Assembly: GCF_004331695.1 (NCBI RefSeq)
Contig: NZ_SJSL01000002.1
Span: 62,001-126,000, forward strand
DNA from: Pedobacter psychroterrae
Lineage (GTDB): Bacteria; Bacteroidota; Bacteroidia; Sphingobacteriales; Sphingobacteriaceae
Reading direction: 5' to 3'
Length of the DNA stretch: 64,000 nucleotides
Shown here: one piece after another, positions 768 to 17,955 of the stretch
How the letters are laid out: each line of letters begins with the position of its first letter
Numbering within the stretch: the stretch's first letter is position 1
The notes under the pieces: generated by a model
The model's input: the letters and a program-made list of their open reading frames with translations, nothing else
Database searches by the model: none
What the model was told of the DNA's origin: nothing
Made by a program: the position numbers and the translations under genes

Positions 768-2674
768 TGAAAGTGCTTGCATACAGCTTATTCAGTGATT
801 TCGATATCTCATTATTTGTTTCAGGCAAGCACTTTCGGTTGTATGAGAAATTTGGTGCACATCTCATCAGCGTAAATAATACCGATGGAACTTATTTTTC
901 CGTTTGGGCACCAAATGCGCAGGCTGTAGGTGTAATAGGAGATTTTAACCACTGGGACCGCAGTACCCACCCACTCAACAGGCGCCTAGATAGCTCCGGA
1001 ATTTGGGAGGGTTTTATTCCCAATGTTGCCAAAGGGACTGTTTACAAATATTCTATCAGGGACTTCAACGGTAAGGAAATAGAAAAAGGCGATCCATATG
1101 CAAGCAGATGGGAACATCCTCCCCGAACTGCTTCAATCGTTTGGGATACTGACTATACCTGGAAGGACAAGCCCTGGCTTAAGAAACGCCCTAAATTAAA
1201 CGCCCTAAATATGCCCATGTCAGTTTATGAACTGCATCTGGGCTCATGGCAGCGTGACCCGAGCGAACCTAAGCGGGTTTTGACCTATAAGGAAATTGCA
1301 GCAAGTCTGGTGCCTTATATTCTTGATATGGGCTTTACCCATGTAGAACTGATGCCCATCATGGAATATCCCTACTATCCGTCATGGGGATACCAGATCA
1401 CCGGCTATTTTGCAGCCAGTTCAAGGCACGGGACTCCACAGGAACTCATGTTTCTGATCGAAGAACTACATAAGAGCAATATAGGTGTCATACTGGACTG
1501 GGTTCCCTCTCATTTTCCGGGAGATGCACATGGATTATACCATTTTGATGGTACGCACTTATATGAACATGCCGATATGCGCAAGGGATTTCATCCCGAC
1601 TGGAAGTCTTATATTTTTAACTATGACCGAAATGAAGTACGCTCATTCCTGATCAGCAACGCCATGTACTGGCTGGATAAATTTCATGCCGATGGCCTCA
1701 GGGTGGATGCCGTAGCATCCATGCTCTATTTTGACTTCTCCAGAAAAGCAGAAGAAGCGGCTACTAATGAGTATGGCGGAAGCGAAAACCTGGGTGCTAT
1801 CTTGTTTCTCAAAGATCTTAACGAAGCTATTTATGGCAATTTTGAGGGAGTACAGACCATTGCAGAAGAAAGTAGCACCTATCCAGGCGTTACCAATCCG
1901 GTGTATGCAGGGGGACTGGGCTTTGGGATGAAGTGGATGATGGGATGGATGAACGATACATTAAAGTATTTTAAAAACGACCCGATCAATAGAAAGCACC
2001 ATCACCATCAGCTTACCTTCAGTGTCACTTATGCATTCAGTGAAAACTTTATGCTGCCGTTTTCTCATGACGAGGTAGTACATGGAAAGTCTTCCATGAT
2101 CTATAAGATGCCTGGGGATGAATGGCAGAAATTTGCGAACCTTCGTGTGCTGTATGCCTATATGTTTACCCAGCCCGGTACTAAGCTGTTATTTATGGGA
2201 AATGAATTTGCGCAGACACATGAGTGGGACTTTAAAAACTCGCTCGACTGGCACCTGTTGCAGCATCCCCCGCATCTGGGTATGCAAAAAACCGTGAGGG
2301 CGATGAATCAGTTGTACACTTCTGAACCAGCTTTATATGAACATAGTTTCTCGCATGAGGGTTTTGAATGGATCACGGCCGACGATGCTGATCAGTCAGT
2401 ATTTATCTATATCCGAAAGGGTAAAAAGGCAAAGGACACTTTGGTTGTGATCTTAAACCTTACACCTGTGTACAGGCAAAATTACCGGTTTGGCCTGCCT
2501 ATTAAATCAAACTGGAAAGAGATCTTTAATACGGATGCGACAGAGTTTTTTGGTAGCGGCAAGTTAAATTTAAACACGCTAAAGCCTGAGAAGCAAGAAT
2601 GTAACGGCCGGGAATACTCTACCTTAATAGATATTCCGCCTTTAGGCGCAATCGTCTTAAAACAAACCAAATAG
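767..2674 (+). CDS. glgB: 1,4-alpha-glucan branching enzyme
   Basis: Cytoplasmic enzyme that makes alpha-1,6 branches in glycogen. The 635 residues show an N-terminal CBM48-type domain (about residues 40-120, with FSVWAPNAQAVGVIGDFNHW), then a GH13 barrel. Predicted catalytic residues are Asp314 (in LRVDAVASML), Glu367 or Glu368 (in TIAEESSTYPG) and the transition-state Asp435 (in PFSHDEVVHGK). NEFAQTHEW is the usual GlgB segment. Length and the N-terminal SLFSDFDISLF / GKHFRLYEKFGAH pattern match Bacteroidota-type branching enzymes, which supports this start. The last 56 bp overlap the convergent CHAT gene. Confidence 0.97.
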   Translation: MKVLAYSLFSDFDISLFVSGKHFRLYEKFGAHLISVNNTDGTYFSVWAPNAQAVGVIGDFNHWDRSTHPLNRRLDSSGIWEGFIPNVAKGTVYKYSIRDFNGKEIEKGDPYASRWEHPPRTASIVWDTDYTWKDKPWLKKRPKLNALNMPMSVYELHLGSWQRDPSEPKRVLTYKEIAASLVPYILDMGFTHVELMPIMEYPYYPSWGYQITGYFAASSRHGTPQELMFLIEELHKSNIGVILDWVPSHFPGDAHGLYHFDGTHLYEHADMRKGFHPDWKSYIFNYDRNEVRSFLISNAMYWLDKFHADGLRVDAVASMLYFDFSRKAEEAATNEYGGSENLGAILFLKDLNEAIYGNFEGVQTIAEESSTYPGVTNPVYAGGLGFGMKWMMGWMNDTLKYFKNDPINRKHHHHQLTFSVTYAFSENFMLPFSHDEVVHGKSSMIYKMPGDEWQKFANLRVLYAYMFTQPGTKLLFMGNEFAQTHEWDFKNSLDWHLLQHPPHLGMQKTVRAMNQLYTSEPALYEHSFSHEGFEWITADDADQSVFIYIRKGKKAKDTLVVILNLTPVYRQNYRFGLPIKSNWKEIFNTDATEFFGSGKLNLNTLKPEKQECNGREYSTLIDIPPLGAIVLKQTK

Positions 2675-5396
2675 TAAATGAGATAAACGCTGCAAGGCCA
2701 ATGTACAACAGGTAAGCGATCATTGGGCTTGCAGCGGGTTTGAGTATCAGTTTCTGGTCATGGCCCATAAAGATCAGTGCATCCCAATAATAGGGCAGAT
2801 ACTCCTGTTCGCCATTTCTGGTGCCGTTCAGCCAGTTCATTTTAGCCAGATGCAGGGCATTGCTACCCGTATTCCCATTTAGAATATTATGGTATACATC
2901 GGCAGTAATACGCGCTGCTGCATCATCGTTTACATTCCAGAGTCCTGCTATAGTGGACTGAGCACCAATGGCTGCAAAACCCCTGCTAAGGCTAATGATA
3001 CCCTCTCCTTTAGCCATCATCCCATCAGCAGTCTGACATGCACTGAGCACCACCAATGATGGTGCGTTCTTCCTTGCTGATAACTCAAACAGAAATACAT
3101 CGTTGTCATTAAAGGCCAGGGTAGGTTCTTTCTGTACGCCCGACAGATAGGAGTGTGTGCTGATGTGCAGTACCGAGGCATTGTCAAATGCATTCAAAAA
3201 ATCCTTAATGCCTGCTGCTTCATCCATCAGAAAACTGCCGGATACAATCTTTTTAATTGATGAGGCTTCTTTGGCTACCGCGGGGATGAACTGCTTATCA
3301 CTGTTTTGATGGGTAATGAAGAGTCCTGCGAATCGGTGTCCGGCATTTTGTCTTACCTGCGATTGGTTTATCAGAGTTTGAATAGAAAAGGCATAAGAGA
3401 TGCTGGCCATTTTTATCAGGTAGGGCCATTGAGAGATTGCAGTGCTGTATTTTTTTTCAGTAATCAGTCCATCAAAAGACAAGTTGCCCAATACTTCATC
3501 GGTTATGATGATCACCTGCTCATTGTTGTCAATTCCCAGTTCAGACAGTAATGTTTGGTAGATGTGATGAGAGGCTTCATAAAAGACTTTAGGGTTGTTC
3601 ATCATTGCAGCAGGGCCGTCGTGGTAATATATCCTCACAAAATCTGCGATTTCCTGTTTTATGCTGCCCGCATTGGTAATTCTTTTAATGTGTCTGATCC
3701 TTTGGTTTTTTACCTCCAGGACATATATATTTTTTTGCCCTACAAAAAACTGTACTACTCGGCTCTTGCGCGGTATTTTATTCAGCAGGCCTGCTACAGT
3801 TAATTTGGCCGATCTGCCGGCTTTTGTTATAGAAGGATATTTTTCTCTCAATACCTTTTCCAGGTTTTCCAATCTGAACTTTAGCACTTCATTGTTCTTA
3901 TTGAGCGTTTCCCTTTCCAATTGCTTTCTTGGTTCTCTATGCTCCCCATGCGCCCCTGAATGCTGTTGCATGAGTTCCTTTTCATTATAAGCAATTGCCC
4001 TTTCCAAGCCTTGCTTGCTTGCAAATAAAGTATCTTCCGTTTGCAGTGTAAGCTGCTGCTGGTTATTTCTGATCGATTCCAGTAATGTCCGGGCTTTACC
4101 CTGCTCCATGATATCCAGGATGGTCAGGGCATATTGATACTGACCAGTCTTTTCAAGCAGGTTGTATGCGATCCCAATTGCTTGCTCTGCCTTTTCTTTG
4201 GTTTCTGCCTGAAAGCGTTGCTTTGTCCTCACATCTGCCAGTTCAAATCTGACCTTATCAGCGGCGAGTAGTGACAATTCAATGTTTTCCAGCGCCGCTT
4301 TCTGGTTGCCGGTCTGCAGGGCAGCTAGCCCTTTCTGATAAAATACATCTATCAGGCGATTGTCACCAAAGATTTGATCCCGCACCAGGCGGCCATTTCC
4401 TGTTAGTCCTAAAACATGGAGTGTCTGGTTAAAATACCTTTCTGCTTCAGCAGATTTGTTTTGTTTTAGCTTTACATTGCCTAGCTGGGTGGTGGCATAG
4501 GCTTGCTCCCGGCGTCTGTTGCCATTATAGTATCGATCATTAATCACTAGTGCCTGATGATAAAATTCCTGAGCAACAATAAAATTGCCTTTAAGCAATG
4601 CAATGTCTCCTGCAGTAATATAACTGCTCAGCAGCCAATAGGCCGTTTCAAAATCAGGCTTGCGCTTCTTTTGCTGCTGTATGTTCTCAGTTATTGTCTG
4701 CTCTGCCAGCTTGATATTCCCGTTGTCTTTATAGATATCAGCCAATGTGTTTTTTAGCAATATTTCAGTCTCTGATCCGTCCACCAGTCTTTCCAGACCA
4801 GATTTTACACACCTTTCCGCATTCTTATAATCACCAAGTGAGCGATAGGAAATGGCCATATTGTTGTACGTAGCAGCAGCCAGTTGGCGGTCATTTTCTT
4901 TCAGCGCATATTCCAGCGTCTGTTTTTGTATAAATAACGCCCTTTCATAATCCCCCAGCCGCGTGTAATTGTTGGCCCAGGGTTTAAATATATATTCGGC
5001 TATACCGGCAACATTCAGTTTATTCTCTGTGAAATAATTGTACGAATGTTCATAATAGTTGATGGATTCAAGTATGTTGCCAGTGTAAAGCAGGTTGTAC
5101 GCCTGATTGCTCAGCAATATCAGCCAGGCTTCTTTTTCTGCTGTACGCTTTGGTTTCCTCCAGATTTCTTTTTGCGTACGCATCAGAAAAGACAGGCTCT
5201 GCGCCGGATTATGGTAACTGTGATCTATCCTAAGGTAAAGCCATTCGGTCAGGTCATCTTCCTTTTTAAAAGAATCAAGCTTTTTATCTAGTCCGGTATA
5301 AGGCTGTACAGTCTGTGCCACAGCGGTGCTGATGCCGCTGTCTGCGATAATCATTAAGATCAGTAAGCTACACCACCTGGCAATATACATGGACAC
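2619..5396 (-). CDS. Secreted or membrane-anchored TPR-CHAT domain protein (caspase-like peptidase)
   Basis: The 925 residues begin with a signal peptide (hydrophobic LLILMIIADSG, cleavage near AVAQ). Many tetratricopeptide repeats follow (about residues 60-420; for example the A..YNNMA.SYRSLGDY type), then a coiled-coil stretch (about 440-540), then a CHAT domain (about 600-880). The predicted His-Cys dyad is His748 in VLHISTHSYLSG and Cys787 in VVLSACQTADG. A single membrane helix (about residues 888-908) with a basic tail closes the protein, so TPR and CHAT would face the periplasm. CHAT domains are clan CD cysteine peptidases related to caspases. The residue after the His is Ser instead of the common Gly. 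The gene follows the PKD protein gene by 57 bp and is probably cotranscribed. Substrate unknown. Confidence 0.9.
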   Translation of the reverse strand: MSMYIARWCSLLILMIIADSGISTAVAQTVQPYTGLDKKLDSFKKEDDLTEWLYLRIDHSYHNPAQSLSFLMRTQKEIWRKPKRTAEKEAWLILLSNQAYNLLYTGNILESINYYEHSYNYFTENKLNVAGIAEYIFKPWANNYTRLGDYERALFIQKQTLEYALKENDRQLAAATYNNMAISYRSLGDYKNAERCVKSGLERLVDGSETEILLKNTLADIYKDNGNIKLAEQTITENIQQQKKRKPDFETAYWLLSSYITAGDIALLKGNFIVAQEFYHQALVINDRYYNGNRRREQAYATTQLGNVKLKQNKSAEAERYFNQTLHVLGLTGNGRLVRDQIFGDNRLIDVFYQKGLAALQTGNQKAALENIELSLLAADKVRFELADVRTKQRFQAETKEKAEQAIGIAYNLLEKTGQYQYALTILDIMEQGKARTLLESIRNNQQQLTLQTEDTLFASKQGLERAIAYNEKELMQQHSGAHGEHREPRKQLERETLNKNNEVLKFRLENLEKVLREKYPSITKAGRSAKLTVAGLLNKIPRKSRVVQFFVGQKNIYVLEVKNQRIRHIKRITNAGSIKQEIADFVRIYYHDGPAAMMNNPKVFYEASHHIYQTLLSELGIDNNEQVIIITDEVLGNLSFDGLITEKKYSTAISQWPYLIKMASISYAFSIQTLINQSQVRQNAGHRFAGLFITHQNSDKQFIPAVAKEASSIKKIVSGSFLMDEAAGIKDFLNAFDNASVLHISTHSYLSGVQKEPTLAFNDNDVFLFELSARKNAPSLVVLSACQTADGMMAKGEGIISLSRGFAAIGAQSTIAGLWNVNDDAAARITADVYHNILNGNTGSNALHLAKMNWLNGTRNGEQEYLPYYWDALIFMGHDQKLILKPAASPMIAYLLYIGLAAFISFTIWFVLRRLRLKAEYLLR

Positions 5397-5453
5397 TTTT
5401 TAGCTAAATTACTTCTTTTAGTCATACTTTGGTCGACTAACATCGTAATTATG

Positions 5454-7553
5454 CTAAAACTTCCAGGTAGCATAGGTGATTATCCTGTTGCCCTTGTCCT
5501 GCAGGGTATACAGGTATCTAAAGCCAAGGGATGGGCCTACATGTACCTTTCCTAGCTGCAAATCTGCAAACATGGTATTTTGAAAATCATTAAAACTACG
5601 CTTTACCTTATCATAGCTCTCAGCCATTATCTTCATTGTACCCGGAGATTTGACCGATTCAAAAAAGCCTTGCCGCGATGGGAGCGACTGCTTGTCGAGG
5701 GTAAATGAAACAAGAGAACCCACACCTACGCCAATAAACTTGTTGAAGTTCCTTCTCAGTTGGAGCGGCACAATGTTTATAGTAACTACCTTTATTACTG
5801 CTGTACTGTCTATATAATTGAGTCTGAATTCTTCTTTCCGTCCATCTGCATTGTCCAGTGCCACAATTCTTCCATTGCCCGGAGTTCTTTCTATCAGGTA
5901 TTCTTTTTCGGCATAGGTGCTCATGTAAAGCTCTGCCTGCAGAAAATAGCGGTGAGGAGCATAGGGTGCTATACTGGCTCCAAAGTAAAGGTTCTTTTGC
6001 CCGGTATATGGCGTGCCGCCATTTTCAAATGGAAAGCCGTAACCCGCGATAATTCCCGGCGACAAACCCATCTTATACTTAGCTACCGACCTGTTGGTAT
6101 AGATTGGTTCGTTCTTATCAAATACAATAGCTGCACCGCTTTTAAAAGGCAGCTTCTTTGGCTTGTCCTTAAATCCGATCTCATATTCAATATAGCCCAT
6201 GGTGGAGTCAGCATCTTTCACTCCTTTCTGCTGCATACCAGGAAGGTAGATATTCTGAAATACGAAATGTATACTGTCTGTACCCCGTATTGTATCCAAA
6301 CTACTTTGATTTGCATAAGCCGAATCGGCCATCACCAGTTTAGGTTTGGAGTCGAGGATTTTAATACTGCCCATATCCAATACTTCTGCTATTGCCACGC
6401 CCACACTTACCTTTTTTGCCGGGCCTTTACCCGTATTTTGAAACCGAACTTTATAAGTCAGCTTCTTTTTTTTGCCTGTAAAGCGGAAATTCATCCGGCT
6501 GTTTTTTAGCATCATTTTATTAGGGTCATGCGAGGCAACAATCTGCAGTTCTACTGTAAATGATTCAGTAGCCGCCAGCGGATCATCGGGAACAAATATA
6601 CCTGTCAGTTTTACCACCGCATTGGTGTCTTTGATCATTTCAGGTGTGGTTTTAAACTGCATAAACATAAACCGTTCTTCTCCAGCTTTCAGGTTCTCAA
6701 ACTTCCAGCTTTCTCCGGTTTTAAAAGCAGCCATCTTTTCTTCGATCATAGCTGTAGCTACCGGATCCAGAACAGTAGTGCTGGCTTTAAGGTCATTTGG
6801 GCCTGCTACATATCCATAGAACGGCTCATTTCTAGCAGTGGTTTTCAAGGCGGCAAAAGTTCCTGTCTTTTCAAATGCCGTCTTTTTCTCCCCATGATAC
6901 AACCGTGTTTCCTCCAATACGAAATTATCCTTCGTAAATTCCTTATCGTTGTACAAAATGGATAGGGTACCGTTCAAATTGGCAAGGCCGTTTTCCCGCT
7001 TATTTTGATATCCAAATACCAGCATCATCTCTTCGCCGGGCTTGGGCATGCAATTGGTCTTCATTTCAATAGCACCTCCAGATTTAAAAAATGCAGGATC
7101 AGCGTCCATTCCTGCTGCACCTGCAGGATTATTGGAAGCCAGAACTGGTCTGCTGCTGCCTGGTTTCAAAGGCTTTGGACGGGTAGGAGGACGCTTGCCG
7201 TCATCATAACTGTTGGTCGCAAACAAGCGGACATTGTAAACCAAAGCGTCTGGAAATATATGCTGCGGCTCTTTATCAAAAGAAAACCGGCCATCGCCAA
7301 ATTCCCAGAAGTAAGTGTAAAAAGGTTCAGGCGCACCTGCGATCTGCCTGAGAGGCCGCAGGACCGAACTAAACTTAACTATCCCGTTTGTCTCAGTATA
7401 GTTGATAATTGCCGGAACAGTATCTGTTGCGACAATCAGGCCTGGCGCAGGTTTGTCTTTTGCAGGTACAGCCTGTGCCTTCGCTGGCAGTCCATACAAT
7501 ACAAATAAACTGCCTGTCAAAGCAGGAAGGAGGATACGTAGCCGTTTTCTCAT
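5454..7553 (-). CDS. Exported PKD / DUF7619-like surface protein
   Basis: An open frame reaches 7601, but that upstream ATG lies at the base of a terminator hairpin (7600-7634). The ATG at 7553 gives a good signal peptide (MRKRLRILLPALTG, cleavage near AKAQA) and is the better start, for 699 residues. A PKD-type domain is visible near residues 45-115 with the hallmark YFWEFGDG (81-88). A later Ig-like domain begins with SHDPNKMML and contains VRFQNTGKGPAKKV, a pattern common in Bacteroidota secreted proteins (DUF7619/DUF11-like). The last 200 residues may form beta strands and end with tyrosine-rich YLYTLQD and TYATWKF. No enzyme motif seen. It shares a unit with the CHAT gene. Confidence 0.82.
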   Translation of the reverse strand: MRKRLRILLPALTGSLFVLYGLPAKAQAVPAKDKPAPGLIVATDTVPAIINYTETNGIVKFSSVLRPLRQIAGAPEPFYTYFWEFGDGRFSFDKEPQHIFPDALVYNVRLFATNSYDDGKRPPTRPKPLKPGSSRPVLASNNPAGAAGMDADPAFFKSGGAIEMKTNCMPKPGEEMMLVFGYQNKRENGLANLNGTLSILYNDKEFTKDNFVLEETRLYHGEKKTAFEKTGTFAALKTTARNEPFYGYVAGPNDLKASTTVLDPVATAMIEEKMAAFKTGESWKFENLKAGEERFMFMQFKTTPEMIKDTNAVVKLTGIFVPDDPLAATESFTVELQIVASHDPNKMMLKNSRMNFRFTGKKKKLTYKVRFQNTGKGPAKKVSVGVAIAEVLDMGSIKILDSKPKLVMADSAYANQSSLDTIRGTDSIHFVFQNIYLPGMQQKGVKDADSTMGYIEYEIGFKDKPKKLPFKSGAAIVFDKNEPIYTNRSVAKYKMGLSPGIIAGYGFPFENGGTPYTGQKNLYFGASIAPYAPHRYFLQAELYMSTYAEKEYLIERTPGNGRIVALDNADGRKEEFRLNYIDSTAVIKVVTINIVPLQLRRNFNKFIGVGVGSLVSFTLDKQSLPSRQGFFESVKSPGTMKIMAESYDKVKRSFNDFQNTMFADLQLGKVHVGPSLGFRYLYTLQDKGNRIITYATWKF

Positions 7554-7599
7554 ATTCTTAATAAAAATAACAATAAACCCGATATAATTTAATAGAAAC

Positions 7600-7634
7600 A
7601 AAAAAAGGATAAAGCCCTTGTAGGGGCCCTATCC
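7600..7634 (-). terminator. Rho-independent terminator after the 7657-8640 lipoprotein gene
   Basis: Read on the minus strand, an 11-bp stem (arms GGATAGGGCCC and GGGCTTTATCC, two G-U pairs) with a 6-nt loop is followed by seven T residues. It lies 23 bp past the lipoprotein stop and overlaps the false upstream start of the PKD protein gene. Confidence 0.85.
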
Positions 7635-7656
7635 AATTTGTATTCATAAGCAGAGG

Positions 7657-8640
7657 TTAATAATTGTCAAGGCTATTGATGGCGGCCTGAACAGCGGCTT
7701 CAGTAGTTTCGCTCAAAGTAAGCGTGACATTTTGATTGGCGCTGATGGTGATTTCCTGTGCGGCATAATAGAATCTGCCATCTTTGATAGAGAAGGAAAG
7801 CATACGGCCTTCTGATCCGATCGGCATCATATTGTCATAGCTTTTTACTTTGCCGGTACCATCAGGAGTATACAATTGTGCAGCTACGTTGCTTCCTTTG
7901 GCACAGAAGAATACAAATGTCTCACCGGAGAAGCCTCTGAAGCTTGCAAAAGTACCTGGATTATTTGCTACGTCTACAGTAACTGTAGTTTTAGGATTGG
8001 AATAGTTGTAGAATACATCACAATTGATCCAGCCAAGGTTGCCAAAATCAAAGGTAAAAGCGGCATTTGTTACGCTTGCTTCTCTCTGGCCCACTCCATT
8101 TGCAGGTTTTGGTGCTTGCCATCCCATTTGGTTATTGCCGGCCGCTACCAGTGGGTTGTTATTCTGGTCTACACCCACCCATAGCTGGGTAACACCTTCT
8201 CTTTTAGCAGGTATAGATACTTTAACAGGCACAGCAAGGTTCTGGTCTACGCTAGCCCCGTTTGATTTTACATCTATAAAGATAAATCCATCAGATGCAA
8301 GCGGCGCACCCGATGCGTGATTGGTATTGGCACCGCTAAACAGCACAGCACTTCTTTTCAAAACTTCATAAACTTCTACCGTTACGTTTCCAGTTACCGC
8401 TACACCACTTTTGGTAAGAGAGCCTGCCGGGAAAGTTATTTTCGTGCCATCCAGAAAGCTTAATGTTTGCGGTAATATTGAAGCGTTGATCTCACGGATT
8501 TGTTTTTGTGCGCCAAATTTGGAAGTAAATTCTTTTGCTGCGCTCACCGTATGGTCTTTTACGGGATTTTCTCTTTTACAAGCAATGCTCAATGAAGCGA
8601 TTGCGATTAATAATGCTGATTTTAAGTTTAATGTTTTCAT
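7657..8640 (-). CDS. Lipoprotein of unknown function
   Basis: The 327-residue product has a lipoprotein signal peptide with predicted lipidated Cys21 (SLSIAC). The rest looks all-beta. It has a segment ITFPAGSLTKSG followed by GNVTVEVYEV that resembles the ZU5/carboxypeptidase-regulatory-like modules of Bacteroidota surface lipoproteins. I recognise no catalytic motif. The gene is divergent from the ECF sigma factor gene across a 178-bp intergenic region with an unusual pyrimidine/purine-rich motif (8731-8749), so it may be a target of that sigma factor. It is separated from the PKD gene by a terminator, so it is transcribed on its own. Confidence 0.8.
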   Translation of the reverse strand: MKTLNLKSALLIAIASLSIACKRENPVKDHTVSAAKEFTSKFGAQKQIREINASILPQTLSFLDGTKITFPAGSLTKSGVAVTGNVTVEVYEVLKRSAVLFSGANTNHASGAPLASDGFIFIDVKSNGASVDQNLAVPVKVSIPAKREGVTQLWVGVDQNNNPLVAAGNNQMGWQAPKPANGVGQREASVTNAAFTFDFGNLGWINCDVFYNYSNPKTTVTVDVANNPGTFASFRGFSGETFVFFCAKGSNVAAQLYTPDGTGKVKSYDNMMPIGSEGRMLSFSIKDGRFYYAAQEITISANQNVTLTLSETTEAAVQAAINSLDNY

Positions 8641-8730
8641 GATTTCTAATTTTTAAGTTTTTTAATCTGTTTGCTAATTTTCTAAAATCTAATTTTTGAT
8701 GATTTGAATAGATATCAGTGGCATTGCAGT

Positions 8731-8749
8731 TTTGTTACCCCCTCTTTCG
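8731..8749 (-). promoter_or_regulatory. Candidate ECF-type promoter between the lipoprotein and sigma factor genes
   Basis: On the minus strand the region reads CGAAAGAGGGGGTAACAAA, followed on its 5' side by a run of T. A G-rich GGGGTAAC block is unlike the TAnnTTTG housekeeping element and sits about 90 bp upstream of the lipoprotein start. Assignment to the adjacent ECF sigma factor is inference from position only. Confidence 0.35.
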
Positions 8750-8818
8750 AAAAAAAAATTACAACCCTATTAAAAGAAGTTTTAAATTAGGCCACGTATC
8801 CATTTTACTAATCTGCCA

Positions 8819-9388
8819 ATGGCCAAGAACATACATCCAGACCAGCGCTATATTATCGGACTGATAAATAATGATACTGCTATCATCAATGATATTTATA
8901 AGCGCTGTGCAGGCAAGGTCAGGTCATGGATCACATTCAACAATGGAAGTGATGACGATGCTGCCGATATTTTTCAGGAGTCGCTGATGGATATTTACAG
9001 GCAGGCAAAATACAAGTCGCTGGAGCTGACCTGTCCATTTGAACCTTACATCTTATTGATATGCAAGCGCAAATGGCTCAATGCTATTAAAAAAAGATCA
9101 GTTTTACCGGTAACAAATAGTGAGGAAGATTTATTACTAATCGGAGAAGATACTTTTGCAAATGCAGATTATCTGGAAAGCCAGGAACAGCAGTCTAAAC
9201 TATTTTACGAAGCTTTCGAAAAACTGGGCGATCGTTGTAAGGAGATCATATCATGGAGCATGAAAGGCGAAGCACAGGAAAAAGTAGCTGAAGCCCTGGG
9301 CGTTACTTATGGTTACCTGCGCAAAAAGAAATCTGAATGTATGGCTTCTCTGGTAAAAATTGTTCAATCTACTAAAACCGAATTCTAA
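8819..9388 (+). CDS. RNA polymerase sigma factor, ECF-like sigma-70 family
   Basis: 189 residues with a sigma region 2 (about 20-85, including DAADIFQESLMDIYRQAKY and the following helix with KRKWLNAIKKR) and a region 4 helix-turn-helix (about 130-180, GDRCKEIISW then EKVAEALGVTYGYLRKKKSEC). No region 1 or 3 is present, as expected for the ECF class. Downstream, its TAA overlaps the ATG of a membrane TPR protein, which probably holds or senses the sigma factor. It should direct transcription of a small regulon, possibly the divergent lipoprotein gene and the PKD-CHAT unit. Confidence 0.92.
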   Translation: MAKNIHPDQRYIIGLINNDTAIINDIYKRCAGKVRSWITFNNGSDDDAADIFQESLMDIYRQAKYKSLELTCPFEPYILLICKRKWLNAIKKRSVLPVTNSEEDLLLIGEDTFANADYLESQEQQSKLFYEAFEKLGDRCKEIISWSMKGEAQEKVAEALGVTYGYLRKKKSECMASLVKIVQSTKTEF

Positions 9389-10173
9389 TGCTGAACGAAG
9401 ATAGACTATTGGCCGTTGCCCGCTACCTGGAAGGGGATATGGAGCCACAAGAAAGACAGGATTTTGAAACACTACTACAAGAGGATGCAGAACTGCGGGA
9501 AATGCAGGCCAGTTACAAAGATATTCACCAGACCCTTAAAATGAAAATAGCACCAACAGTCGAAGACCTGCAACTGCAAAGTACATTGTCTGCGTTGAAT
9601 GAGCAATATTTCAAAGCTTCATCCGCAGAAGGAGAAGACCATCCGTTACCGAAACCTGCCGATGAGGTTAAAGTAGCCAAAGTTGTGTCAATGAAACCAT
9701 ATCTTAAATGGGCCACTATAGCTGCGGTACTAATTATTGGCCTTTTTGTCTGGGCGCCATGGTCTTCCGGTCTGTATAATCAGTATAGTTTTAGTAAACA
9801 AATGTCGGTAGCAGAACGTGGAGCGGACCAGCAAAACCCAATGGCTAAAGCCGCTGCGCTTTACAACAAAGGAGATTATGCCGAAGCCAGAAAGATTTTG
9901 CAACAGGAATATATGATGAGTCCCCAGAACCCCTTACTTGCCTATTACTTTGCTATCACGTTGATAGAAACCGGTCAGGAATATGAAGCCAGAACGGTAT
10001 TGATTAATTTACACAATGGTGAATCAGTTTTTAAATATGATGCAGCTTTTTATGTGGCACTTAGCTTTGTAAAGCAAGATGATAAGGAGCAGGCTGTAGC
10101 ATGGTTGTTGAAGATTCCAACGGAGAATGTTAACTATGAAAAAGCACAATCATTAATACAAAAATTGAAGTAG
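9388..10173 (+). CDS. Membrane protein with anti-sigma-like N-terminus and periplasmic TPR repeats
   Basis: 261 residues in three parts. A cytoplasmic helical N-terminus (residues 1-100) has the RYLEGDMEPQERQDFE pattern seen in anti-sigma-like proteins (the related zinc anti-sigma motif is absent). A single membrane helix spans about 106-124. A periplasmic domain with tetratricopeptide repeats follows (about 150-255; AALYNKGDYAEARKIL and later repeats). The start overlaps the sigma factor stop (TAATG), so the two are translationally coupled. I infer that it is the sigma factor's partner, linking envelope state to sigma activity. Its TPRs might bind the TPR-rich CHAT protein, which is untested. 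Confidence 0.8.
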   Translation: MLNEDRLLAVARYLEGDMEPQERQDFETLLQEDAELREMQASYKDIHQTLKMKIAPTVEDLQLQSTLSALNEQYFKASSAEGEDHPLPKPADEVKVAKVVSMKPYLKWATIAAVLIIGLFVWAPWSSGLYNQYSFSKQMSVAERGADQQNPMAKAAALYNKGDYAEARKILQQEYMMSPQNPLLAYYFAITLIETGQEYEARTVLINLHNGESVFKYDAAFYVALSFVKQDDKEQAVAWLLKIPTENVNYEKAQSLIQKLK

Positions 10174-10253
10174 AAAATGATCATATAAGACATCTAGGTT
10201 GATACTTACAATCAGGTAGCAAAGTATTTGATATCTCAGTATCAGAAAGGCAC

Positions 10254-10293
10254 AAAAAAAGAAGGTAGCCTTAGCTGGCTACCTTCTTTTTTT
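10254..10293. terminator. Bidirectional terminator
   Basis: A perfect 10-bp stem (GAAGGTAGCC / GGCTACCTTC, loop TTAGCT) is flanked by seven A on the left and seven T on the right, so it can end both the sigma unit and the convergent OmpA gene. Confidence 0.93.
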
Positions 10294-10318
10294 GTGTAGT
10301 ATTTAAAAGTTAAGCTGC

Positions 10319-13599: not shown

Positions 13600-16500
13600 A
13601 TGTTAGATCATATAATTCGTTTTTCGATAAAGAATAAACTTTTCATAGGGGCCATGGTAATGATACTTATTGCCTGGGGGGTCTATTCGGTAAAACACCT
13701 GCCTATTGATGCCGTACCTGACATTACTAATAATCAGGTCCAGATCATTTCTCAAGCTCCAAGTCTCGGTACGCTGGAAGTAGAGCAGTTCATCACTGCG
13801 CCGGTAGAGCTGGCTATGGCCAACATCCCGAATGTGATTGAAAAGAGGTCGATATCCAGGTCCGGAATATCGGTGATTACAGTCGTGTTTGAAGATGAAA
13901 CCGACATTTACTGGGCTAGGCAGCAGGTAGCAGCGCAACTTAAAGAAGCTGAATCCGATATTCCTAAAGGTATTGCACAACCGTCATTGGCGCCTATTAC
14001 TACCGGACTAGGGGAGATTTATCAGTATGTATTGCATACCAGGAAGGGTTATGAAGATAGATATAGTGCTGCTGACCTTAGGACACTGCAGGATTGGATA
14101 GTCAAGACCCAACTGGCCGGAACAAAAGGCGTAGCAGAGGTTAGTGGTTGGGGGGGCTATGTAAAGCAATATGAAATAGCGCTTGACAATGACAAGCTAA
14201 ACGCCAATGACGTCACAATCTCCCAAATTTACAAAGCGTTGGAAAATAACAATGAAAATACGGGAGGTTCCTATATAGAACAGCAAAGTAACGCATATGC
14301 CATAAGGGGCATAGGGCAGGTAAAGTCGCTGGATGATATTGAGAAAATAGTAGTGAAGAACGTTGGTGGCGTGCCCGTGTTGATTAGAGATGTGGGTACC
14401 GTACAGTTCGGCAGTGCCACCCGGTACGGTGCAGTAACGCGAAATGGTACTGGAGAGGTGGTGGCGGGAATCACGCTGATGCTCAAAGGTGAGAACTTTA
14501 ACGAGGTGATAGCGAATGTAAAGGAGCGGATCGTGCAGATTCAAAAATCATTGCCTGAGGGTGTAGTGATAGAGCCATTTATAGACCGTACGGAGTTGGT
14601 TGGCCGTTCTATCAGCACAGTTCAGAAGAATCTGATAGAAGGGGCACTGATTGTGATCTTTGTGCTGCTGCTGTTGCTCGGTAACTGGCGGGCAGGATTG
14701 ATCGTTGCCTCGGTTATTCCGTTGTCTATGTTGTTTGCTTTTGCGATGATGCGCTTGTTTGGTGTATCGGGCAACCTGATGAGTTTGGGGGCGATAGACT
14801 TCGGGCTTATTGTAGACGGTGCAGTGATCATTGTAGAAGCCATTGTTTTCAGGCTTACCGAAAGTAAGCTGTTTAAAGATAAGGCATTGCTAAATCAGCA
14901 GGAAATGGATAGTGAGGTATTTACAGCTGCTTCAAAGATCAGGGCAAGTGCCACTTTTGGAGAGATTATCATACTGATCGTTTACTTGCCTTTATTGTCG
15001 CTGGTGGGTATAGAAGGTAAAATGTTTAAGCCAATGGCACAGACTGTAGTGTTTGCCATCATTGGGGCATTTATACTTTCGCTGACATATGTGCCTATGG
15101 TGAGTGCATTGTTTTTGAGTAAGAGTACCATTCATAAACCAAATTTTTCTGATAAAATAATAGGATTTGTAAAAGGTGCCTACCTGCCTGCGCTGGAATG
15201 GATACTGCGGTTTAAGAAATTGGTTGTAGCAGCAGCATTGATATTGTTTATTTTTACGCTTTGGGTGTTCAGCAGAATGGGTGGTGAGTTTTTGCCCCAA
15301 CTGGAAGAGGGAGACCTTGCTGTTGAGATTGCTATGGCACAGGGGACTTCACTGAGCCAGGTTGTGGAAACTTTTAGTAAAGCAGAAAAGATATTGAAAG
15401 ATAAATTTCCTGAGGTAAAACAAGTAGTTACCCGGATAGGCAGCGCCGAGATTCCCACCGATCCCATGCCACTGGAACGGGGTGATATGATGGTTGCCAT
15501 GCTTCCAAAAGACGAGTGGACCAGTGCCTCTACCAAGGAAGAAATGTCTGAAAAGATGGAAGCAGCACTGTCTGTACTGCCGGGTGTAAATGTAGAACTA
15601 ACACAGCCTATGCAAATGCGGTTTAATGAGCTCATGACGGGTGTGAGGCAGGATGTAGCCATTAAGATCTACGGTGAAGACCTGGATGTGCTGACCCGTC
15701 AGGCTGCCAGAGTAGCACAACTGATAGCCCCGGTAGCTGGGGTGAGTGAGCCATTTGTAGAACAGGTGACCGGACTGCCGCAGGTGATGGTAGAATATGA
15801 CCGCGATAAGATTGCGCAGTATGGATTGAGCATTTCGGAAATAAACAACATATTAAAAACAGCTTTTGCCGGTAGCGTAGCAGGGGTAGTTTTTGAGGGA
15901 GAGAAGCGTTTTGATATGGTGCTGCGCCTGCATCGCAATCTGAGAGAGAATATTTCCAGTATTGAAAACTTGTACATCCCCTTGCCTTCGGGAAATAAAG
16001 TGCCACTAAACCAAGTGGCTAAGGTGGAATTGAAAGAAGCTCCTGCCCAGATATCCAGAGAAGACGGAAAAAGAAGGATTTATGTAGGATTTAATGTCAA
16101 AGGCCGCGATGTGGAGCGAACTGTAGCGGAGATTGAACAGTTACTTGATGCACAATTAAAACTATCTCCGGGTTACTATATCACGTATGGTGGCCAGTTT
16201 CAAAACCTCAAAGAAGCAAAGAGCAGGCTGGCGATTGCGGTACCCTTTGCTATGCTGTTGATTTTGGGACTGCTCTATTTTACATTTCGTTCTTTTACGC
16301 AAACCATTTTAATTTTTACGGCAGTCCCTTTATCTGCCGTAGGTGGTGTTTTTGCTTTGCTGCTTAGAGACATGCCTTTCAGCATATCTGCAGGAGTAGG
16401 TTTCATTGCCCTGTTTGGGGTTTCAGTATTAAATGGAATTGTATTGATCTCTTATTTTAATCAGTTGAAAGAAGAGGGTATGTCAGATGTTTATGAAAGA

Positions 16501-17955
16501 GTGATAAAGGGTACGGGCGTAAGGCTAAGGCCGGTCATCATGACTGCTGCGGTCGCATCACTGGGCTTTTTGCCAATGGCATTGTCTGGCGGAGCGGGGG
16601 CAGAGGTTCAAAAGCCACTGGCTACAGTGGTAATTGGTGGGTTGCTGTCAGCTACGCTGCTTACCTTATTTGTATTGCCATGTTTGTATATCCTGGTTAC
16701 TGGCCGCAGAAAAAGGTTAAGTGTGAGACCAGTAGTGGTGATATTGCTTTTATTGATAGGTATTTTTACACAGTTTGATGTCAGGGCGCAGCAGAAAGTA
16801 ATTTCAGCAGATACGGCGATTGCGCTGGCGCTTAAAAACAATCTATTGATAAAGTCTTCAGAACTGGCCGTCAAACAGTCAAGATATCTGGAGAAATCGG
16901 CTTTCGATCCTGGCAAAACTAATTTTAACTTGTCTCAGGATCCAAGCAGTGGTGGTGGTAATGACAATTCGCTGGGGGTATCACAAAGTTTTGCCTGGCC
17001 AGGATTATACAAAAACCAGAAAAAGGTATATCAGGCACAGACAGATCTAATGCAAAAATCTGGTAATTATACCAAAGCTGAAGTAATCAGGGATACACGA
17101 TTGGCTTATTATGGCTACCTGTTTAGCATGCATGCATTGAAGGTATTAAAACAGCAGGACAGTATTTATCAAAACTTTATAAAGAAATCTGAACTTAGGT
17201 TTAAGGTAGGTGAGACCTCCAACCTGGAACTGATCACTGCCAGAAATAAATATCAGGAAGTGCAGGCATTGAAACAGGCAGCAGTAGCAGATTTAAGAAT
17301 GGAGTACCTGAACCTTAAACAGTTGATGAATATGGAAATGGAATTTACTGTGCAGGATAAAGCATTGCCACTGTTGCAGCCGGATGCTCATGAAGAAACC
17401 GATTCGGGTTCTCTTGCTGAAGTATACAAACAACAGATAGCTGTAGCGAAGGCTAAAATAGGACTGGAAAGGTCAAAGAAAATGCCTGATTTTACGATTG
17501 GCTATGCACAGCAGCTGGTGATCAGGTCTTTTGATCCGGCAAATCTGAACAGGGATTATACTCCGGGAACAAGAATTGCCGGCATACAGTTTGGCGTTGG
17601 TATACCCATCTTTAATAACGCAGGGCGGGCGAGAGTCAATAGTGAAAAAGTAGCCTTGCAGATAGCCGAAACAGACTACCTAAGAATGCGGCATCAGCTG
17701 AATATTCAGTATGAAAGGGAAATGCAAAATTATTTGAAACATAAAAGTATGGCAGATTACTATACTTCTGAGGGCTTAAAGCAGGCTGATGAACAGCTCC
17801 GTATTGCACAGATTTCCTATGATCTGGGCGAAATAGGTTACATCGAGTTTATACAAAATATGGCTTTGGCTGTACAGGGTAAACTTGCCTATCTTCAGGT
17901 TGTTCAGCAACTAAATGAATCAGTTATCCGCTTACAATTTTTAAAAGGAAATTAA
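13600..17955 (+). CDS. CusA/CzcA-type heavy-metal RND pump fused to a TolC-like outer-membrane protein
   Basis: 1451 residues in one unbroken frame. Residues 1-1045 are a full RND transporter of the heavy-metal efflux class: an N-terminal helix, two large periplasmic loops, and two membrane blocks including GNWRAGLIVASVIPLSML, SLGAIDFGLIVDGAVIIVEA and GVGFIALFGVSVLNGIVLIS. Then comes a second signal-like helix (VVVILLLLIGIFTQ) with a cleavage-like VRAQQ near residue 1062. From about 1068 to the end is a TolC/CusC-type outer-membrane channel of helical repeats (ALALKNNLLIKSSELAV, later GVGIPIFNNAGRARV). This pump-channel fusion is known from Bacteroidota. It sits one base before the adaptor gene, so pump, channel and adaptor form one operon. 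Confidence 0.95.
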   Translation: MLDHIIRFSIKNKLFIGAMVMILIAWGVYSVKHLPIDAVPDITNNQVQIISQAPSLGTLEVEQFITAPVELAMANIPNVIEKRSISRSGISVITVVFEDETDIYWARQQVAAQLKEAESDIPKGIAQPSLAPITTGLGEIYQYVLHTRKGYEDRYSAADLRTLQDWIVKTQLAGTKGVAEVSGWGGYVKQYEIALDNDKLNANDVTISQIYKALENNNENTGGSYIEQQSNAYAIRGIGQVKSLDDIEKIVVKNVGGVPVLIRDVGTVQFGSATRYGAVTRNGTGEVVAGITLMLKGENFNEVIANVKERIVQIQKSLPEGVVIEPFIDRTELVGRSISTVQKNLIEGALIVIFVLLLLLGNWRAGLIVASVIPLSMLFAFAMMRLFGVSGNLMSLGAIDFGLIVDGAVIIVEAIVFRLTESKLFKDKALLNQQEMDSEVFTAASKIRASATFGEIIILIVYLPLLSLVGIEGKMFKPMAQTVVFAIIGAFILSLTYVPMVSALFLSKSTIHKPNFSDKIIGFVKGAYLPALEWILRFKKLVVAAALILFIFTLWVFSRMGGEFLPQLEEGDLAVEIAMAQGTSLSQVVETFSKAEKILKDKFPEVKQVVTRIGSAEIPTDPMPLERGDMMVAMLPKDEWTSASTKEEMSEKMEAALSVLPGVNVELTQPMQMRFNELMTGVRQDVAIKIYGEDLDVLTRQAARVAQLIAPVAGVSEPFVEQVTGLPQVMVEYDRDKIAQYGLSISEINNILKTAFAGSVAGVVFEGEKRFDMVLRLHRNLRENISSIENLYIPLPSGNKVPLNQVAKVELKEAPAQISREDGKRRIYVGFNVKGRDVERTVAEIEQLLDAQLKLSPGYYITYGGQFQNLKEAKSRLAIAVPFAMLLILGLLYFTFRSFTQTILIFTAVPLSAVGGVFALLLRDMPFSISAGVGFIALFGVSVLNGIVLISYFNQLKEEGMSDVYERVIKGTGVRLRPVIMTAAVASLGFLPMALSGGAGAEVQKPLATVVIGGLLSATLLTLFVLPCLYILVTGRRKRLSVRPVVVILLLLIGIFTQFDVRAQQKVISADTAIALALKNNLLIKSSELAVKQSRYLEKSAFDPGKTNFNLSQDPSSGGGNDNSLGVSQSFAWPGLYKNQKKVYQAQTDLMQKSGNYTKAEVIRDTRLAYYGYLFSMHALKVLKQQDSIYQNFIKKSELRFKVGETSNLELITARNKYQEVQALKQAAVADLRMEYLNLKQLMNMEMEFTVQDKALPLLQPDAHEETDSGSLAEVYKQQIAVAKAKIGLERSKKMPDFTIGYAQQLVIRSFDPANLNRDYTPGTRIAGIQFGVGIPIFNNAGRARVNSEKVALQIAETDYLRMRHQLNIQYEREMQNYLKHKSMADYYTSEGLKQADEQLRIAQISYDLGEIGYIEFIQNMALAVQGKLAYLQVVQQLNESVIRLQFLKGN

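Follow-up and report, generated by a model that had tools for sequence, protein, structure and literature searches.

Among described systems in which a protease acts on the inhibitor of a sigma factor, DegS-RseA-RpoE relies on a serine protease, DegS, and the type III CRISPR system CalpL-CalpT-CalpS reportedly employs a protease that cuts an anti-sigma factor, this protease (CalpL) being said to be a cytoplasmic, SAVED/Lon-type enzyme activated by cyclic oligoadenylate. The available part of one study describes the scheme in which a site-1 protease and then further proteases act on an anti-sigma factor, and reports that Csx29 cuts Csx30, an inhibitor of CASP-sigma, and that this cleavage relieves sigma inhibition (PMC10028731). 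Here we describe a five-gene locus within a 64,000-nucleotide stretch of the Pedobacter psychroterrae genome (contig NZ_SJSL01000002.1, positions 62,001 to 126,000; hereafter, the window) that encodes an extracytoplasmic function (ECF) sigma factor, a membrane protein with tetratricopeptide repeats (TPRs), a lipoprotein, a PKD-domain protein, and an exported protein that joins TPRs to a CHAT peptidase domain. We propose, at about even chances, that the CHAT protein is a site-1-type protease that would cut the membrane TPR protein, a putative anti-sigma factor, to release the sigma factor; the cleavage, its site, the signal, and the part played by an outer-membrane barrel are all predicted from sequence comparison.

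As in type III-E Craspase (Csx29, Csx30, CASP-sigma), a TPR-CHAT protein, an ECF sigma factor, and a candidate inhibitor are encoded together. Unlike Craspase, and judging from the genes, the CHAT protein of the window would be exported and tethered to a membrane, and the inhibitor would itself be a membrane protein. On paper, therefore, the system resembles Craspase in how it might work, and we do not class it as one. No Cas protein was recognized among seven locus proteins scanned with Pfam or five scanned with PADLOC, both scans being confined to the locus, and a role for the CHAT protein as a CRISPR accessory was dropped because the protein is exported and no Cas gene lies among the scanned neighbors. 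A PADLOC match to BovA was set aside as weak (E 8.6e-5). When the CHAT protein was searched as a single sequence against the Protein Data Bank (PDB), only TPR-containing chains were returned, and a profile was needed to reach CHAT chains. The CHAT-domain profile matches PDB 8rot (E 3.6e-10) and TPR-CHAT/Csx29 chains (E 1e-4 to 1e-3), and eight PDB sequences are matched at E <=0.001, Csx29/TPR-CHAT chains among them. As in the DegS-RseA-RpoE and RsiW systems, the predicted cut lies in the periplasmic part of an anti-sigma factor with one membrane helix, and further proteases would follow; unlike DegS, the protease here is caspase-like and travels with the sigma locus. The proposal shares with CalpL-CalpT-CalpS a protease that would act on an anti-sigma factor.

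A literature search of titles, abstract beginnings, and terms, which did not extend to subscription papers and may have missed an earlier mention, found no publication on a periplasmic CHAT protein with an ECF sigma factor and an anti-sigma factor; the publications it found on CHAT proteins with sigma factors concern CRISPR. In the available part of a review of ECF sigma factors, a term search finds the word CHAT only in the name of an author (PMC8103513).

An open reading frame listing of the window, together with Pfam and NCBIfam matches, places the five genes where the initial annotation, made from the DNA letters alone, had put them. The features of the locus are as follows.

2619..5396, minus strand: TPR-CHAT protein of 925 residues, with an N-terminal signal peptide, TPRs, a CHAT domain, and a C-terminal membrane helix (residues 888-914)
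2763..3569, minus strand: CHAT domain (residues 610-878; Pfam PF12770, E 4.9e-41)
3153..3155, minus strand: codon of His748, predicted catalytic dyad, invariant in an alignment of 36 CHAT proteins
3036..3038, minus strand: codon of Cys787, predicted catalytic dyad, invariant in an alignment of 36 CHAT proteins
3267..3269, minus strand: codon of Glu710, candidate acidic specificity residue
5454..7601, minus strand: exported PKD/DUF7619/DUF7849 protein, with a likelier ATG start near 7553
5457..6068, minus strand: DUF7849 domain (residues 512-715; Pfam, E 1.4e-52), predicted 8-stranded outer-membrane beta-barrel
6087..6527, minus strand: DUF7619 domain (residues 359-505; Pfam), Ig (immunoglobulin)-like, pilin-type fold
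7607..7634, minus strand: intrinsic terminator in the gap between the lipoprotein gene and PKD-CHAT, 11-bp stem followed by T7
7657..8640, minus strand: exported lipoprotein with lipobox Cys21, first gene after the sigma promoter
8712..8739, minus strand: predicted sigma-dependent promoter GGTAACA-N15-TGATAT
8819..9388, plus strand: ECF sigma factor of 189 residues (TIGR02937, 58.7 bits, cut-off 42.9)
9388..10173, plus strand: membrane anti-sigma-like TPR protein of 261 residues, with a membrane helix (residues 104-129) and a periplasmic TPR domain
9817..9819, plus strand: codon of Arg144, within the juxtamembrane linker; cleavage predicted at Arg144/Gly145

The sigma and TPR genes overlap by one base and diverge from the lipoprotein, PKD, and CHAT genes. 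The sigma factor exceeds the cut-off of the NCBIfam sigma70-ECF model and scores slightly below that of Pfam region 2, and the lipoprotein has a BT_3987-like match below the cut-off.

This gene set recurs in a way that chance would not produce. We surveyed 121 genomes of the family (thresholds of E <=1e-15 for the PKD protein and E <=1e-24 for the sigma factor) and found any match to the CHAT protein in 40, the PKD protein in 21, and a match to the sigma factor in 22. Twenty-one of the 22 sigma-matching genomes are the 21 PKD genomes (Fisher p 6e-24, without phylogenetic correction), and the remaining one, G094, which belongs to the genus of the window, holds only a decayed sigma relic (G094:C16:494216-494587; 44% identical, with four stop codons) and has no PKD or CHAT match. 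The sigma matches in G053 and G072 display one TAA, yet full-length open frames are present at both. Counting the window, there are 35 distinct PKD loci. The cognate sigma gene is part of 31 of them, and a sigma orthologue of 56-58% identity lies away from the PKD-CHAT locus in G040, G103, and G118; in G103 a promoter-bearing lipoprotein gene adjoins the relocated sigma gene.

A second set consists of 80 loci from named genomes, the best 80 of 343 relatives, spanning Pedobacter, Mucilaginibacter, Chitinophaga, Niastella, Lutibacter, Aquimarina, Flavobacterium, Fulvivirga, and others. Nine of these coincide with loci of the first set; they are omitted from the counts given below as non-identical and retained in those based on 80 loci or on 69 CHAT proteins. 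The overlapping duplicates L109 and L116 were left out, as was L118 in the counts of sigma density across the phylum and of the Arg/Glu pairing. The CHAT gene follows the PKD gene in 76 of the 80 loci, counting fragments at contig ends, and for three of the other four a full CHAT orthologue was found elsewhere (three genomes searched). Of the 74 loci with a sigma gene or with 5 kb or more of upstream sequence, 66 contain the sigma gene, and two of the eight lacking it (L194 and L200) have a more distant sigma pair further off. Because the sigma factor or the CHAT protein is kept even where unlinked, the set appears to be held together by function and not by linkage alone. The phyletic match and the synteny across the 80 loci place the arrangement far beyond chance, and the neighborhood is conserved in related genomes within Bacteroidia, as the initial annotation had anticipated.

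Sampled across the phylum, 148 of 296 genomes encode a CHAT protein. At 37 non-overlapping CHAT loci picked by hand down the phylum list, an ECF sigma gene lies within 3 kb in 16 cases (7.1 such genes per 100 kb, against 1.4 at greater distances), and in 14 of those 16 a membrane TPR partner follows the sigma gene, as judged by eye. Sigma-anti-sigma pairs adjoin CHAT genes also at loci that lack a PKD gene.

The membrane TPR protein looks like the anti-sigma factor of the adjoining ECF sigma factor, to which it would bind. Hydropathy and a structure model divide it into a cytoplasmic helical part, a single membrane helix, and the periplasmic TPR domain, and its N terminus carries the pattern YL.G.L...E...FE..L..D..L, which we take to be typical of anti-sigma factors. 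At E <=0.01, 31 of 37 relatives match the anti-sigma model NF052375 of NCBIfam, the best at 1.2e-12; the protein of the window reaches E 2.8e-5, which is below the cut-off of the model. The matches listed by fold searches with this protein are all TPR domains, with no anti-sigma fold recovered among them. At three loci (L034:11568-12182, L037:11463-12227, and L182:10645-11394) we also observed a second TPR protein gene by the CHAT gene, without a sigma partner and without the linker arginine described below.

Beyond the membrane helix, residues 134-150 form a linker with neither helix nor strand in the model. Arg144 lies in this linker, 15 residues past the helix in the window (the median in the set being 21 past the best membrane window), and is kept in all but one of 83 non-identical anti-sigma proteins encoded at PKD loci, where conservation of the other linker columns (130-152) ranges from 13 to 80%. 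The residue that follows the arginine in the 82 proteins that have it is Gly in 65, Ser in 15, Asp in 1, and Ala in 1. Caspase-clan peptidases are commonly specific for the residue preceding the cut, which is often Arg.

The candidate protease is the only CHAT match in the 5.1-Mb genome and scores 141.5 bits against a PF12770 cut-off of 24. Hydropathy gives it an N-terminal hydrophobic export signal and, at the other end, a membrane helix followed by a basic tail, from which the peptidase, with a predicted cutting activity, should face the periplasm. Cys787 is kept in all 39 aligned CHAT proteins, window included, and His748 in 38, the exception being a short protein of 411 residues; His744, His748, and Cys787 are invariant in an alignment of 36 CHAT proteins, 35 of them PKD-linked. 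Among 69 CHAT proteins of at least 700 residues from the named genomes (nine of them also in the first CHAT set and still counted), both dyad residues are present in 67, and the remaining two do not extend that far. A C-terminal helix is found in 65 of these 69, and an N-terminal hydrophobic stretch in 56, a count in which signals may be hidden since the frame starts were set mechanically. Both the dyad and the orientation toward the periplasm named in the initial annotation hold up on these data.

Glu710, which lies 38 residues before the catalytic histidine, offers a possible counterpart to the linker arginine. Glutamate occupies this position in 166 of 174 non-identical dyad-bearing CHAT proteins, one of the other eight (L059) being a misalignment; L300, with Asn at this column in a broken alignment, was left out of the count. 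Across 128 non-identical sets of sigma factor, anti-sigma factor, and CHAT protein, 115 have both the arginine and the glutamate, seven have neither, four have the glutamate without an aligned arginine, and two have the arginine without the glutamate. In the seven double losses the linker arginine is replaced by Met, Leu/His, or Ser, and Glu710 by Ala, Leu, or Ser; systems with such replacements are L063, L067, L069, L115, L050, L056, and L194. By eye, L275, L283, and L289 among the four have an arginine at a shifted place, and L295 has a lysine. Both sets with arginine and no glutamate have CHAT proteins cut off before the dyad, and so Glu710 is missing only where the linker arginine is missing. 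On the tree there are two Glu710 losses, each accompanied by loss of the linker arginine, with only one independent pair on well-supported branches. We regard it as suggestive that the two residues change together. The pattern was found in one set and extended by 40 further loci, among which no clear new Glu-less lineage appeared, making the extension a weak test. The available part of a Craspase study proposes charge complementarity between the CHAT pocket and the linker, with variable cut sites (PMC11106740).

The regions 5' of the lipoprotein gene share the sequence GGTAACA, 15 bases, and TGATAT, and it is well supported that the sigma factor would read this promoter. In 27 of the 35 loci a looser form stands in front of the lipoprotein or PKD gene, in some at up to about 570 bases, with a shorter spacer in L073; it is absent in the other eight (L040, L041, L042, L046, L060, L061, L062, and L083). 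Relocated lipoprotein genes carry their own copy (L047, L048, L051, and L082), and a copy precedes a large OmpA-domain gene in five loci. When sites no more than 300 bases from the start of the lipoprotein or PKD gene were counted in the 80 named loci, 49 loci had one with a spacer of 15, 4 with a spacer of 14, and 1 with a spacer of 20; the remaining eight spacings between 10 and 20 gave none, and neither did shuffled motifs. The exact pattern GGTAACA-N15-TGATATA occurs 40 times in the 121 family genomes, 36 times in the 21 sigma-bearing genomes (17 of which have at least one site). The remaining 100 genomes account for 4 sites, and the reversed pattern has 5 occurrences family-wide. Thirty of the 40 sites could be read, and by eye an exported-protein-like frame begins within about 220 bases downstream of 23 of the 26 in sigma-bearing genomes and of none of the 4 in others. 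The genome of the window has four exact sites, which precede the lipoprotein, an exported protein of at least 487 residues with a CarboxypepD_reg match just under the cut-off, an exported protein of 139 residues, and, at the fourth (L162), no plausible gene. No promoter copy faces the sigma gene itself in the window, which gives no sign of autoregulation. At L036, L039, L040, and L044, a frame of about 30 residues with a hydrophobic stretch lies just 5' of the lipoprotein gene and, if a promoter site was found there, follows that site; no such frame was noticed in the window.

Control of the PKD and CHAT genes by the sigma factor is likely, though less well supported. The hairpin in the gap before them (-21.9 kcal/mol over a 71-nucleotide stretch, z -4.07) has counterparts, with a run of five Ts, in the lipoprotein-PKD gap of 42 of 66 non-identical tandem loci. 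With a terminator between the promoter and PKD-CHAT, sigma control of both genes would be reduced or would operate by read-through. A promoter site stands directly before the PKD gene in 8 loci. The lipoprotein would probably be made in abundance and PKD-CHAT sparingly, as suits sensing parts. The initial annotation had put the protease under the control of an envelope-sensing sigma factor; the promoter of the divergent genes is very probably read by the sigma factor, and the claim must be softened for the two genes behind the terminator. It had also named three findings that would count against it, and by sequence we found instead a conserved neighborhood, conserved active-site residues, and a shared promoter, with the terminator before PKD-CHAT as the one reserve.

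The PKD protein contains PKD_4, DUF7619, and DUF7849, the last of which had not been named in the earlier account. Its structure model (mean predicted local distance difference test, or pLDDT, 79; predicted template modeling score, or pTM, 0.45) has long beta strands over residues 512-715, and this segment compares with 8-stranded barrels at VIA Z scores of 15.8 for a designed barrel, 15.4 for OprF, 15.1 for NspA, and 13.8 for OmpA. DUF7849 is predicted from this to be a C-terminal 8-stranded outer-membrane barrel. Residues 358-510 (DUF7619) align to pilin-type Ig domains at a VIA Z of about 14, and the available part of one paper counts DUF7619 among the isopeptide-bond domain families (PMC12617251). 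Given a C-terminal barrel, the Ig-like domains would most likely extend into the periplasm. The closest named relatives of the PKD protein are from Pedobacter, at no more than 70% identity, and DUF7849 is over its cut-off in 15 of the 296 phylum genomes.

Under the mechanism that we propose, the membrane TPR protein would hold the ECF sigma factor at rest, as its anti-sigma factor. The periplasmic CHAT protein, tethered by its C-terminal helix, would probably sense the state of the outer membrane via the barrel protein, whose Ig-like domains would lie in the periplasm. Once activated, it would make a site-1-type cut after Arg144, within the linker of the anti-sigma factor and 15-20 residues beyond the membrane helix, whereupon an M50 site-2 protease would finish the degradation and free the sigma factor. 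The genome encodes one M50 protein (E 1.2e-56), and its presence is weak support for a site-1 pathway since M50 proteins were found in 14 of 14 control genomes. The freed sigma factor would then read GGTAACA-N15-TGATAT promoters of exported-protein genes. The lipoprotein would be made at a high level and PKD-CHAT, reached by read-through, at a lower one, and promoters elsewhere would yield further exported or OmpA-type proteins.

Several observations weigh against this proposal. The joint change of the linker arginine and Glu710 is not significant after phylogeny is taken into account, and the linker state changes five times on the tree as against two Glu710 losses, which leaves three changes without a loss of the glutamate. 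The Glu710 column is itself uncertain in the most divergent CHAT proteins, with two alignments disagreeing for L059, L268, and L275; judged by eye, the second is right for L059 and uncertain for L268 and L275. Published Craspases, as given in the available part of the study cited above, cut at A/S, L/D, and M/K and not after Arg, unlike the Arg/Gly or Arg/Ser site predicted here, and changing single residues at the Jc site made little difference (PMC11106740). At one locus, L083 in genome G156, the PKD and CHAT genes are present but neither a sigma orthologue nor a promoter site is, so the presence of PKD-CHAT does not require this sigma factor. Conversely, 21 of the 31 named loci without a promoter site still hold a sigma gene, implying that the exact pattern misses many sites or that the promoter is altered there.

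The position of the CHAT gene downstream of the sigma promoter would equally suit an effector, one that processes envelope proteins while the sigma factor is released otherwise, for example through ligand sensing by the TPR domain. We think this unlikely, although it deserves to be taken seriously, since a site stands directly before the PKD gene in the eight loci mentioned and an ECF sigma gene is lacking within 3 kb at 21 of the 37 phylum CHAT loci. The terminator-like hairpins suggest low rather than strongly induced levels of the protease, however, and the sigma-anti-sigma pairs beside CHAT genes at loci without PKD and the shared loss of linker arginine and Glu710 also count against an effector. 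Those same pairs speak against a CHAT protein that mainly cuts the PKD/barrel protein or the lipoprotein, a substrate assignment that the initial annotation had suggested. Its appeal lies in the close following of PKD by CHAT in the named loci, an adjacency that fits a sensor-protease pair just as well; nothing we found points to either protein as the substrate, no cleavage-site search having been made in those two, and the evidence favors the membrane TPR protein. We consider these substrates less likely, and that reading as a whole very doubtful. Finally, Arg144 could be conserved for structural reasons instead. If Arg144 and Glu710 were kept for structure or binding, the CHAT protein might be a non-catalytic partner of the anti-sigma factor that contacts it TPR to TPR, as the repeats in both proteins and the fact that Glu710 was lost only twice would allow. 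The His/Cys dyad, intact in all 67 CHAT proteins that cover it and in 38 of 39 in the other set, makes such a partner distinctly improbable.

The proposal of a site-1-type CHAT protease, if true, would give many orphan CHAT proteases a physiological, non-CRISPR role, would place caspase-like enzymes among the drivers of regulated proteolysis in the bacterial envelope, and would give Bacteroidia an outer-membrane-to-gene signaling route whose promoter and regulon are predicted. It also makes single-residue tests possible at Cys787, Glu710, and Arg144. More tentatively, and with more doubt than belief, we suggest that Bacteroidia may possess a class of periplasmic CHAT site-1 proteases for ECF sigma factors in which protease and linker co-evolve at one residue (Glu710 with Arg144; Ala, Leu, or Ser with Met, Leu, or Ser), and that Craspase may be a cytoplasmic, RNA-guided offshoot of this older chromosomal switch and not an isolated innovation; the switch would then be a possible evolutionary source of the Csx29-Csx30-sigma module.

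Other features adjoin the locus. The CHAT and glgB genes overlap tail to tail at their 3' ends by 56 bases (window 2619-2674), and a glgB match adjoins the CHAT gene in L033, L034, and L035 also. A 20-pair, two-way terminator-like hairpin (window 10251-10296) separates the TPR gene from an OmpA-family gene. Farther along, at window 13600-17955, a frame of 1451 residues resembles, by eye, a resistance-nodulation-division (RND) heavy-metal efflux pump with a fused C-terminal outer-membrane efflux protein.

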